Shown in pieces: positions 10,014-54,148 of a stretch of DNA of 57,039 nt; the stretch's first letter is position 1, and each line of letters begins with the position of its first letter. The notes beneath the pieces were generated by a model. It ran no database searches. It saw only the letters and a program-made list of their open reading frames with translations, and was not told the origin of the DNA. The position numbers and the translations under genes are program-made. Origin of the DNA: Campylobacteraceae bacterium (GTDB lineage Bacteria > Campylobacterota > Campylobacteria > Campylobacterales > Sulfurovaceae); assembly GCA_027068975.1 (NCBI GenBank), contig JALXFN010000073.1, positions 1-57,039 of the forward strand, in the 5' to 3' direction.

Positions 10014-11363
10014 ATGTATTTAAAGAATTTATACATGATACTCTCTATATTCCTATCTTTTGCTCAGGCAACAACCTATGAAAACGGAGAAAACAATACA
10101 ACATCAAACTGGACAGTTTATGATAAAGAGAGTATTCATGATAAAAACATCTCAACAGAACTTATAGAAAATATATTTGACAAGAGTAAAGATTCACGTG
10201 TTATTAGATTAAAAGGAAAAGCTCTATCCTATACCTATCTTATTGGTGATATCAATGGGTCCAAAGCATGGGATAATCAAAATGAATCTATTTTTACATG
10301 GGAGATGAGTATGAACGACCCCTATCAACTTATTCTCTTTGCAAAAACAAAAGAGGGACTTAGATATATCTATTTTTCTCATGATAAAAATTCAAATAAA
10401 CTCAATAGTGGTCAATATATCCATGTTGCACTTGACTCAAACATAACACATAATGCATGGAAAAAGTTTAGCTTTGACATTGCCCCAATTATTAAAAATA
10501 GTCAGCCAACTAATAAATTAATCTCTATTAATGGTTTTAGTTTACAAGGTTTAGGAAGTATAGATAATATTGAATTGACATCCAACCATAATGATTTTAT
10601 AAGTAGAATAAAAGTCAATAAGGATAGAAACTTAACCATTAGTACAAATGAAATATTTAAATATGATTTTAATATCAATTGGGGCGATGGAACAACAGAC
10701 ACTCATGTTAAAAAGAGTATTACTCATCACTATAATAGAGAAGGTACTTACACCATCAATATTAATGGTGAATTTCCTCATATTTATGAGTTATGTTCCA
10801 ATACACAGAGTCTACTCTCCGTCGAGCAATGGGGTACACAGAAGTGGAAAAGTATGAAAGAGTCTTTTAAAGATTGTAAAGATTTCACCTCAATTAATAC
10901 AGAAAAATCCCCTAATTTATCTGAGGTTAAAAGTATGTATAGAACATTTTATAATGCCTATAACTTTAATGCGAACATCTCTTCATGGGATGTCTCTCAT
11001 GTTACAGATATGAGTGCCATGTTTTATCATGCTGAAAAGTTTAACCAAGATATTAGTGCTTGGGATTTGTCTTCTGTAAAAGACACCTCGTTTATGTTTA
11101 ACTTTGCTCTGCTCTTTAACCAAGACATTGGTTTATGGGACGTCTCTTCTGTTGAAGATATGCAACTGATGTTTCGCTCTGCCAAGATGTTTAATCAAGA
11201 TATAAGTAAATGGGATGTCTCTTCTGTTAAAACAACATATAATATGTTTAAAGGTGCTGTACACTTTAATCAAAATTTAGAAAATTGGAATACCTCTTCT
11301 CTTAGAGACAATTCTCACTTAAATGGAAGCAGAAATATCATACCCAAAAATCATTCTAATTAG
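10014..11363 (+). CDS. BspA/DUF285-type repeat surface protein with PKD-like domain
   Basis: 449 residues. A signal peptide (1-19) precedes a ~180-residue beta-rich N-terminal domain that I cannot name, then a PKD-like segment around 215-245 (NINWGDGTTD, YNREGTYTI), then five 25-residue repeats of the form FNQDISxWDVSSVxxMxxMF starting at nucleotide 10965 with an exact 75-base period. Such repeats define the DUF285/BspA leucine-rich-like family found in secreted or surface proteins of Bacteroidetes, Mycoplasma, lactobacilli and marine bacteria; binding or adhesion is the usual proposal. The gene is AT-rich and sits in an accessory patch, consistent with horizontal spread. It ends convergently on the lipoprotein hydrolase gene. 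Confidence 0.85.
   Translation: MYLKNLYMILSIFLSFAQATTYENGENNTTSNWTVYDKESIHDKNISTELIENIFDKSKDSRVIRLKGKALSYTYLIGDINGSKAWDNQNESIFTWEMSMNDPYQLILFAKTKEGLRYIYFSHDKNSNKLNSGQYIHVALDSNITHNAWKKFSFDIAPIIKNSQPTNKLISINGFSLQGLGSIDNIELTSNHNDFISRIKVNKDRNLTISTNEIFKYDFNINWGDGTTDTHVKKSITHHYNREGTYTININGEFPHIYELCSNTQSLLSVEQWGTQKWKSMKESFKDCKDFTSINTEKSPNLSEVKSMYRTFYNAYNFNANISSWDVSHVTDMSAMFYHAEKFNQDISAWDLSSVKDTSFMFNFALLFNQDIGLWDVSSVEDMQLMFRSAKMFNQDISKWDVSSVKTTYNMFKGAVHFNQNLENWNTSSLRDNSHLNGSRNIIPKNHSN
10965..11339 (+). repeat. Five tandem 75-bp coding repeats
   Basis: The repeat units begin at 10965, 11040, 11115, 11190 and 11265, each with TTT-AAT/AAC-CAA or GCG and a downstream TGG-GAT/GAC core. The period is exactly 75 bases with no indels. 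Units differ at many third positions, so this is an old, protein-level repeat rather than a recent expansion; the last unit is degenerate. Confidence 0.9.
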
Positions 11364-12374: not shown

Positions 12375-12435
12375 TAGACCTCTTGCATACCCCTATATTT
12401 TGAAGATATTTTTTAGTGTTATGCAAGAAGTCTAC
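12375..12435. repeat. Inverted repeat, MITE- or IS-end-like
   Basis: TAGACCTCTTGCATA (12375-12389) and TATGCAAGAAGTCTA (12420-12434) are inverted copies with one mismatch, separated by 30 bases. The termini resemble the GACCTTTGCA-like ends I associate with some IS5-group elements, and on the minus strand the outer end also reads GTAG. It lies between divergent genes. It could be a tiny non-autonomous element, an IS remnant, or a regulatory hairpin. Confidence 0.5.
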
Positions 12436-21213: not shown

Positions 21214-22359
21214 ATGTTTAGTAAAAAAATAGTTTTAGCCTTTATGCTTCTAGTTGGATTATATTCTGCCTCTTACGCAGAGAATACATTTAGCAAAATG
21301 GCTTCGGGTAAACCAACACTTATCCAAGAGGGGCAAAAGAAAAAGTGGTGTTCTGTTTGTGGAATGAACCTTAAAATGTTTTACAAAACATCACACACAG
21401 TAAAACTAAAAGATGGTAAAAAGCGACAATACTGCTCTATGCGTTGTTTAGCTGTTGACAGTCATGAACATAACATCTCTTTAGATGCTGTTCAAGTGGT
21501 AGACGTAAACTCTGAAAAACTTATAAATGCCAACAAAGCCTTTTATGTTCTAAACTCTAAAATAAAAGGAACCATGAGCAAGGTTTCTAAACTTGCTTTT
21601 GCTAGTGAAGATGAAGCTAATGCCTTTGCAAAAGAGTATGGTGGTGAAGTTACTGATTTTAAAACTGCCTTTGCAAAAGCCAATACCTCTTTAGAAAAAG
21701 ATATTGCCATGGTTCAGATGAAAAAAGAGAAAAAAATGTACCCTATGGGGAAAAAGATTTTTGAGAAGAAGTGTCAAGAGAGCATTGACCCAATGGCATA
21801 CAAAGAGATTAATCAACTAAAATCAGCCATAGCTTCTGATGATAAACTCTGTAAACCACTAAAAGAGAAACAACTTCAAGCTGTGGCACTCTACCTTTGG
21901 GATATAAAACGTGTAGATAAGTCAAAAGAAGATATTGGCAACATAGAAATAGGAAAAGATGAAAAATGCCCAGTATGTGGCATGTTTACTCACATGTTCC
22001 CTAAATGGGCTGCACAAATTTTTTACAAAAATGGAAATATTGAACAGCATCAATCATTTGATGGAGTGAAAGACCTTATGAAGTTCTACTTCAATGCAAC
22101 GGCATGGGGTAGTTATGAGTATTTTAAAAAAGAGAACATTACAAAGATTTTAGTAAATGATTACTACAATCAAAAAGCCATTGATGGACAAAAAGCCTTT
22201 TATGTAGTAGGGTCTGATGTATCAGGACCAATGGGAAATGAGCTAATACCATTTGAAAAAGAGGCTGATGCTAAAACGTTTTTACATGACCATCATGGTA
22301 AATCTATAGTTACTTTTGATAAAATAACAAAAGACGAAGTGTCTAAGTTAGACAAATAA
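21214..22359 (+). CDS. Double-NosL-domain exported protein with cytochrome-like linker
   Basis: 381 residues with signal peptide (1-22). Domain 1 (about 35-150) and domain 2 (about 245-375) each look like NosL: CSVCGM at 46-51 with a second Cys pair CSMRC at 74-78, and CPVCGM at 252-257; both end in an AFYVxxSxxxGxM motif. NosL proteins bind Cu(I) and help mature nitrous oxide reductase. Between them, residues 178-235 (MGKKIFEKKC... then LQAVALYLWDIKR) resemble a class I cytochrome c domain but lack CxxCH: only Cys187 remains. Domain 1 keeps the extra Cys pair that domain 2 lacks. Heads a metal-handling cluster. Confidence 0.85.
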   Translation: MFSKKIVLAFMLLVGLYSASYAENTFSKMASGKPTLIQEGQKKKWCSVCGMNLKMFYKTSHTVKLKDGKKRQYCSMRCLAVDSHEHNISLDAVQVVDVNSEKLINANKAFYVLNSKIKGTMSKVSKLAFASEDEANAFAKEYGGEVTDFKTAFAKANTSLEKDIAMVQMKKEKKMYPMGKKIFEKKCQESIDPMAYKEINQLKSAIASDDKLCKPLKEKQLQAVALYLWDIKRVDKSKEDIGNIEIGKDEKCPVCGMFTHMFPKWAAQIFYKNGNIEQHQSFDGVKDLMKFYFNATAWGSYEYFKKENITKILVNDYYNQKAIDGQKAFYVVGSDVSGPMGNELIPFEKEADAKTFLHDHHGKSIVTFDKITKDEVSKLDK

Positions 22360-22362
22360 ACC

Positions 22363-22470
22363 GTAGGTGTGACCATGTCACACGTCAAATTTTAATCGGC
22401 ATCAATGATTAGGTGAAATAAACATAACCTATTGAACTGAGATTTGACGTTTGGCATGGCACAAACCTAC
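22363..22470. repeat. Paired REP elements (BIME), family B
   Basis: Left unit: GTAG (22363-22366) then GTGTGAC-CAT-GTCACAC, a perfect 7-bp hairpin. Right unit, inverted: GTAG (22470-22467) then GTTTG-T-GC-CAT-GCCAAAC, the same hairpin with a bulged T and the same CAT loop. Both are followed inward by GTCAAAT. About 65 bases separate the hairpins. The pair starts 3 bases after the double-NosL stop codon. Confidence 0.8.
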
Positions 22471-47086: not shown

Positions 47087-47224
47087 GTAGGGTGCCGTTT
47101 TCCAACGCACCTTAAATACATCATAAAGGAAAAACCCCATCAAAACAAAAACGGTTTGAGCTTTATAAAAATCAAAAGCATTTTTATATGCCAATATTTG
47201 GTGCGTTAGAAAACGGCACCCTAC
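47087..47224. repeat. Paired REP elements (BIME), family A
   Basis: Left unit: GTAG (47087-47090) then GGTGCC-GTT-TTCC-AAC-GCACC (47091-47111). Right unit, inverted: GTAG (47224-47221) then GGTGCC-GTT-TTCT-AAC-GCACC. Stem of 8 bp with one bulged C. 88 bases separate the hairpins. The GTAG of the right unit supplies the TAG stop of the minus-strand gene that ends at 47221. Confidence 0.8.
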
Positions 47225-48171
47225 CAATATTCCACAATATTTTTTAATTTCTCACGCTCATAATACTCACAATTTCCCCAACGGTAAAAAATAACCTCTT
47301 TAGGCTTTTTCATAACAACTTTTAAAGCATCTATAGCCTCTTGAAGCATCTCAACAGTTACCTCATCTACTCGAACTTTGTCACCTTTATAGAAGAGTCG
47401 TTCTTTAAAATAGTGTGTTTTCTCTACTACATAAAGGTGTTCTTTTAACTTTTTAAAATGGCTATCTAACTCTTCTTCTCTTACGCCATCCATCAGTCCT
47501 ACTACTTTTGAAAAACGTATAATGGTCGCTTGAGAGTAGAGAGGTAAAGCAAGGTTTAAAGCCAAGGGGTAGCTCTCAAAATTATAATGGTACTGCTTGG
47601 CTACTGCTAAATCTAAAATATAATTCTTAGTCTCTATATCTTTAAAGTCACTCATGTTGTAGTACATAAGAACCCCGTAGTCTACAGGTGGTACGCCAGT
47701 TTTTTTATGGTATTTTACTTGATGTAGTCGAATGGTGGCTGATATTTTTTTAGCACTCTGCTCTTTTAAGCGTTTTAAAAACTCAAAATAACTCTTTTTG
47801 CTACGCTCTGTCCAGTCACAATCTACTTGGATTTCACTGTAGTTTTTTAAGGGCATCTTATTTAAAGCGTCTAAAACTTTTCTGACCATGGTAGAGGCTT
47901 TCATTTTTTTCCATACAGAGTTGTCCATGTAAATAACAGGTACTGTCTCATGAAGAGGCAATGTTTGAAAAGAGGTTTTTTTAAATGCGAAACTACTATT
48001 ATAAGCAATATCTAAAACCTTTACGTAACGTGGAGGGTGACTCTCATTGACATCTACTTTGTAATTTGATGTCCAGTGATAAAAGGTATAGGTTGTTTTT
48101 GGGGATGGTCTGTTATAGATGTACCCAAAAAGAAAAACAACTATAACAAAAAGAGCTAATATTTTTTTCAT
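47221..48171 (-). CDS. Membrane-anchored DUF3142-like protein
   Basis: 316 residues: N-terminal TM (about 5-20), then a TIM-barrel-like domain with FYHWTSNYKVD, IQVDCDWTERSKKSYFEFLKRL, SATIRLHQVKY and VLMYYNMSDF. This order fits DUF3142, which I place near glycoside-hydrolase-like folds; no catalytic pair is certain. It follows a large lipoprotein gene with a 4-base overlap (ATGA-type), so the two form a unit. Its stop codon TAG is the GTAG foot of a REP element, so the last residues may be element-derived. Confidence 0.72.
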   Translation of the reverse strand: MKKILALFVIVVFLFGYIYNRPSPKTTYTFYHWTSNYKVDVNESHPPRYVKVLDIAYNSSFAFKKTSFQTLPLHETVPVIYMDNSVWKKMKASTMVRKVLDALNKMPLKNYSEIQVDCDWTERSKKSYFEFLKRLKEQSAKKISATIRLHQVKYHKKTGVPPVDYGVLMYYNMSDFKDIETKNYILDLAVAKQYHYNFESYPLALNLALPLYSQATIIRFSKVVGLMDGVREEELDSHFKKLKEHLYVVEKTHYFKERLFYKGDKVRVDEVTVEMLQEAIDALKVVMKKPKEVIFYRWGNCEYYEREKLKNIVEYW

Positions 48172-54080: not shown

Positions 54081-54148
54081 GTAGGTTCGATTTCATCGAA
54101 CAAAAAACCAAAACCCATAAATAATCCGTTCGATAAAATCGAACCTAC
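54081..54148. repeat. Paired REP elements (BIME), family C
   Basis: Left unit: GTAG (54081-54084) then GTTCGAT-TTC-ATCGAAC (54085-54101). Right unit, inverted: GTAG (54148-54145) then GTTCGAT-TTT-ATCGAAC. Both are perfect 7-bp hairpins with 3-base loops. 26 bases separate them. Lies between the stomatin and rnr genes. Confidence 0.82.

Follow-up and report, generated by a model that had tools for sequence, protein, structure and literature searches.

Repeats of the GTAG REP superfamily have been reported in epsilonproteobacteria, Sulfurovum NBC37-1 included (Di Nocera 2013, PMC3733652), and display a GTAG terminus, a 6-13 bp stem, a short loop and head-to-head dimers 20-100 bp apart. In Pseudomonas fluorescens SBW25, two inverted REPs constitute a dispersed, non-autonomous unit, the REPIN, and a distinct REPIN type is found beside each REP-associated tyrosine transposase (RAYT; Bertels and Rainey 2011, PMC3116915). 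The locus described here resembles both systems in these respects. The presence of a cognate RAYT in the same genome is usual and not strictly required, its loss by deletion being documented in E. coli strains (PMC3733652). By analogy with the TnpA-REP proteins studied in E. coli and elsewhere (PMC3116915, PMC8266576, PMC6006769), each REP would fold as a hairpin in single-stranded DNA and would be recognized through its GTAG, stem and loop by the RAYT, a HUH/Y1 transposase. The tyrosine of the latter would cut near the foot, and the REPIN, the pair acting as one unit, would then reach a different extragenic site, either by copying or by relocation.

The window analyzed is the whole stretch of 57,039 nucleotides of contig JALXFN010000073.1. 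It belongs to a genome of 2.78 Mb (146 contigs, 96% complete; G000 below, where G, C and L numbers denote genomes, contigs and loci) whose host is Sulfurovum or a close relative within the Campylobacterota, a placement that follows from the named RAYT loci. The focal element is an intergenic hairpin pair of 108 bp (Table 1), which is very probably one copy of a REPIN dispersed by a RAYT acting in trans. The initial annotation had described two inverted units, each composed of GTAG, a hairpin with a CAT loop and GTCAAAT, and both are present as stated, one on each strand; only a bulged T in the right unit had escaped mention. The left unit (28 nt) has a perfect stem of 7 bp and the right unit (29 nt) a 7-bp stem interrupted by this single T. 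Written as single-stranded DNA, the focal REP unit is GTAGGTGTGACCATGTCACAC. The 112-nt element folded in the same form yields -26.4 kcal/mol (z -6.6), a value equaled by none of 200 shuffles. The foot motif GTAGGTNTG taken by itself is not significantly enriched in the window, with 5 occurrences versus 1.34 expected and 2 of 100 shuffles reaching 5. The pair is held in the 141-bp gap separating a NosL-domain gene from a small reading frame, which probably forms one operon with the FtsX/MacB-type permease gene following it on the same strand. No gene is carried by the REPIN itself.

Table 1. Coordinates of the annotated features in the window.
Feature	Position	Strand	Description
Left REP unit	22363..22390	+	GTAG foot, stem GTGTGAC/GTCACAC, CAT loop, GTCAAAT tail
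Right REP unit, inverted	22442..22470	-	GTAG, stem GTTTG(t)GC/GCCAAAC, CAT loop, GTCAAAT tail
Whole REPIN, putative mobile unit, 108 bp	22363..22470	.	Spacer likeness, fold, orthologous-site comparison
Upstream gene, NosL-domain protein (PF05573)	21214..22359	+	Stop 3 bp 5' of the REPIN
Downstream small ORF, 103 aa	22501..22812	+	No Pfam match; FtsX/MacB-type permease gene next
Second REPIN family, GTAGGGTGCCGTTTTCCAACGCACC	47087..47224	.	9 unit copies in G000; cognate RAYT in G032 (L108, L109)
Third REPIN family, GTAGGTTCGATTTCATCGAAC	54081..54148	.	19 unit copies in G000; cognate RAYT in G030:C39 (L112)

Copies were counted genome-wide by pattern searches allowing mismatches, with the reversed pattern as a control. 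The 22-mer GTAGGTGTGACCATGTCACACG gives 31 matches in G000 at up to 3 mismatches and none when reversed, and the exact focal 22-mer is present in 11 copies; the further genomic copies that had been proposed as a check are thus found, mostly as inverted pairs. Most of these pairs are arranged head-to-head over 105-108 bp (about 107 bp) and have an AT-rich spacer consensus in common, the spacer of the window copy being among the more diverged. Among the scorable units, 24 of 28 are external to ORFs of 120 aa or more; in the window itself, the sequence not covered by ORFs of 100 aa or more amounts to about 10%. When units were gathered by foot and tail only, hairpin pairing reached 6.64 out of 7 versus 5.38 for shuffled sequences, with 0 of 5000 shuffles as high. 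Stem positions 7 and 19 covary (G-C 55, T-A 13, G-T 1); kinship among the sequences inflates such counts, yet the two main subtypes recur across several genomes. Both units therefore carry what defines a GTAG REP, namely GTAG at the 5' foot of a short palindrome that is repeated and mainly extragenic. As expected of a REPIN, the inverted REPs are conserved together at constant spacing and display insertion polymorphism between relatives. Membership of IS200/IS605 was not found, the score being 39.2 bits for an IS200 transposase cut-off of 55. On C11 and on C63, focal REP copies separated by about 2 kb were considered as REPtrons and rejected, as they bracket ordinary genes (UvrB-like on C11).

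Of 399 Campylobacterales genomes, 5 contain the exact focal unit, all in the family of Sulfurovum; with at most one mismatch the unit is found in 21 of 80 relatives, the highest copy numbers among the latter being those of G032 (87) and G030 (43). At the site orthologous to the focal one, G000 and G032 carry the REPIN and G030, G024, G020, G028 and G031 lack it, the FtsX gene at the site being 95% identical in G030. A GTAG-less palindrome occupies the gap in G033 and a different REPIN in G023. Other sites show the same diversity: the focal REPIN found at L023 in G032 is missing in G033, the L031 site is empty in G030 and G020, and L015 harbors different REP families in different species. Since orthologous sites of close relatives are occupied, empty or filled by another family, the elements appear to have moved between sites. 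No clean target-site rule emerged across the empty sites compared. The G033 site of the second family, the only junction with a native GTAG, suggested insertion behind such a tetranucleotide, a general rule that failed at the other empty sites.

The two further families announced in the same window are real (Table 1), and the 2.8 Mb genome harbors no fewer than five GTAG families side by side. The GTAG foot of the second REPIN supplies the TAG stop codon of a minus-strand gene (47221-48171). Other repeats were recorded in the window: a MITE-like inverted repeat of 60 bp (12375-12434), whose ends (TGCAAGAAGTCTA) resemble the sequence 3' of a transposase-like reading frame in L109, and a repeat present five times at 75-bp spacing (10965-11304) inside the ORF 10014-11363. 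Outside the window, L033 and L038 contain palindromes with a double foot, for example GTAGGTGTGACCGTGTCACACCTACG, which seem to be REPINs after deletion of the spacer.

All six Y1_Tnp genes of G000 were inspected as candidate owners of the focal family, the RAYT criterion being NCBIfam NF047646 (REP_Tyr_transpos) with a cut-off of 80 bits. L007 and L008 are bona fide RAYTs (154.5 and 153 bits), so that the proposal of a REP/RAYT system in this genome is upheld by two such genes together with the inverted pairs. They were rejected as cognate owners because each is flanked by its own GTAG family, GTAGGGTGCGATTGCYATCGCACC and GTAGGGTGTAGNCCCCGNCTACACCG respectively. L003 lies beside a GTAGGTTCGG pair, not between its members, and is below the RAYT cut-off; L004 and L005 have longer frames (269 and 259 aa), with weak repeats of the GTAGGTGA type at their flanks; and L006, also below the cut-off, is flanked by GTAG-less palindromes. 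The latter gene (1333-2189 of L006, G000:C101) and its counterpart in G033:C205 (L126, 1284-2073) encode a diverged Y1 transposase of 174 aa. Clusters of GGCATGGACTTYAGTCCATG-type palindromes are found on both sides, the type that also fills the focal gap in G033, and the ensemble may represent a REP-like system that uses a different foot. A RAYT remnant of 30 aa on G000:C59 adjoins yet another repeat. No intact focal-family RAYT is present in the G000 assembly, the best matches being 55% and 47% identical, and the same absence is noted in G032 and G030, the genomes richest in copies.

Such a RAYT is found in two congeners, where it is flanked by the focal REP family: G001, an uncultured Sulfurovum MAG from Snake Pit (locus L114, 5 units), and G010 (3 units). 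The expectation of a RAYT gene accompanied by REPs of this family therefore holds in sister species and fails in the G000 assembly. The two proteins are 89% identical and score 146.2 and 143.8 bits against NF047646. In L114 (1276-2193), the RAYT-REP unit starts a tandem repeat, the contig breaking off within the opening portion of a second gene copy, and the protein owes part of its C-terminal tail to REP sequence. A third RAYT (L170, Sulfurovum ERR1163086_bin.4), 72% identical, bears the GTTTGAC/GTCAAAC subtype. The association is general among the named RAYT loci: in 65 of 80, a single GTAG family is represented two or more times within 600 bp, on both sides in 54 of them. None of 80 shuffled loci showed this, and the 3 positive slices out of 109 taken from the window all correspond to the real third family. 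REP sequence tracks RAYT sequence: REP similarity correlates with RAYT identity (Mantel r 0.45, 69 loci, 0 of 2000 permutations), a correlation to which shared ancestry contributes.

The strong fold and the position between two same-strand genes would also suit a transcribed RNA element, such as a riboregulator, a terminator or an mRNA-stabilizing hairpin, functionally conserved between the nosL-like and permease genes. An Rfam scan gave nothing near the gathering score at the focal pair and a terminator scan no terminator-like site there. Moreover, the focal unit is present at some 20 unrelated loci, and the gap is empty in five of the relatives listed above and holds other repeats in G033 and G023, so that an RNA element is very unlikely. 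A MITE originating from a DDE insertion sequence, with the hairpins as parts of its terminal inverted repeats, would likewise be short and non-autonomous with inverted ends. However, each end carries a separate GTAG-footed hairpin, no insertion sequence with these ends was met, and in G001 and G010 the gene enclosed by such units is that of a RAYT and not of a DDE transposase; this origin is scarcely credible.

A minor alternative accepts the REPIN and assigns its movement in G000 to the resident L007 or L008, acting across families. These are the only RAYTs above the cut-off found in this genome, and the 11 exact copies of the focal 22-mer agree with such activity. Against this stand the different REP family at the flanks of each gene, the identity of only 47-55% with the focal-family RAYT and the covariation of REP and RAYT sequences, and we consider cross-family mobilization improbable. 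Dispersal of the REPIN in trans by a RAYT of its own family is preferred. The focal population looks orphaned because its own RAYT is absent from the assembly while sister species keep a RAYT between REPs of the same family. It is most likely an orphan, or else its RAYT was missed by the assembly; we infer loss from the strain rather than the latter.

A more tentative reading, which we hold to be possible but doubtful, is that Sulfurovum REPIN families outlive their transposase. The RAYT would be lost by recombination between REPINs, leaving a lone REPIN in the manner of a solo LTR, and the orphan would later be re-mobilized by a RAYT acquired from a sister species or by a related one already in the genome. 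Three matching states are observed at the site of the second REPIN, which is empty in G033, occupied by a lone REPIN in G000 and by a REPIN-RAYT-REPIN arrangement in G032, with flanks 91-92% identical. These states are compatible with gain of the RAYT in G032 as well as with its loss in G000.

These results firmly establish that Sulfurovum and its relatives harbor REPIN/RAYT systems. The RAYTs of the three families of the window reside in different sister species. With coexisting GTAG families, RAYTs in sister species and both occupied and empty sites, the lineage is therefore a useful natural series for the persistence of REPIN families without a transposase and for the coevolution of REP and RAYT sequences. 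Recognition could readily be tested on RAYT/REP pairs with stems that differ by a single position (GTGTGAC, GTTTGAC).

As for the known systems, the initial annotation had called REP/RAYT systems little described in Campylobacterota. This wording is right and 'undescribed' would be wrong, because GTAG REPs had been reported in Sulfurovum NBC37-1 (PMC3733652). Unlike the situation in SBW25 (PMC3116915), the G000 assembly lacks the RAYT of the focal family and contains 31 copies of the unit at up to 3 mismatches. Subclass 2.4, or group 4 of Bertels, comprises RAYT genes that contain REPs and are associated with double-foot REPs (Quentin 2018, PMC6006769). The Sulfurovum RAYT genes appear to resemble this subclass by motifs and REP arrangement: WQ and YIHNNP are present, a REP lies half inside L007 and a double foot is found in L033. 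The HUH motif reads DHIH, EHFH or NHIH here, versus strictly NH[IFV]H in subclass 2.4. The G001 RAYT matches E. coli TnpA-REP (PDB 4ER8) with an E value of 1.3e-19 and keeps WQ..R..EH..R and the catalytic Y...NP, that is W94, Q95, E100, H101, R104, Y115 and N119 of the E. coli protein, whose residue roles, including the GTAG contacts and N119, are described in PMC6006769. REPs of E. coli exceed the focal ones in length and have a bulged stem, whereas the latter are short, mostly perfect hairpins. The focal stem and loop were compared with the GTAG superfamily by its general description. Given the GTAG REPs of Sulfurovum NBC37-1 (PMC3733652) and the RAYTs of subclass 2.4 (PMC6006769), the focal family is therefore, at the level of that description, a new family of the known GTAG REP kind.
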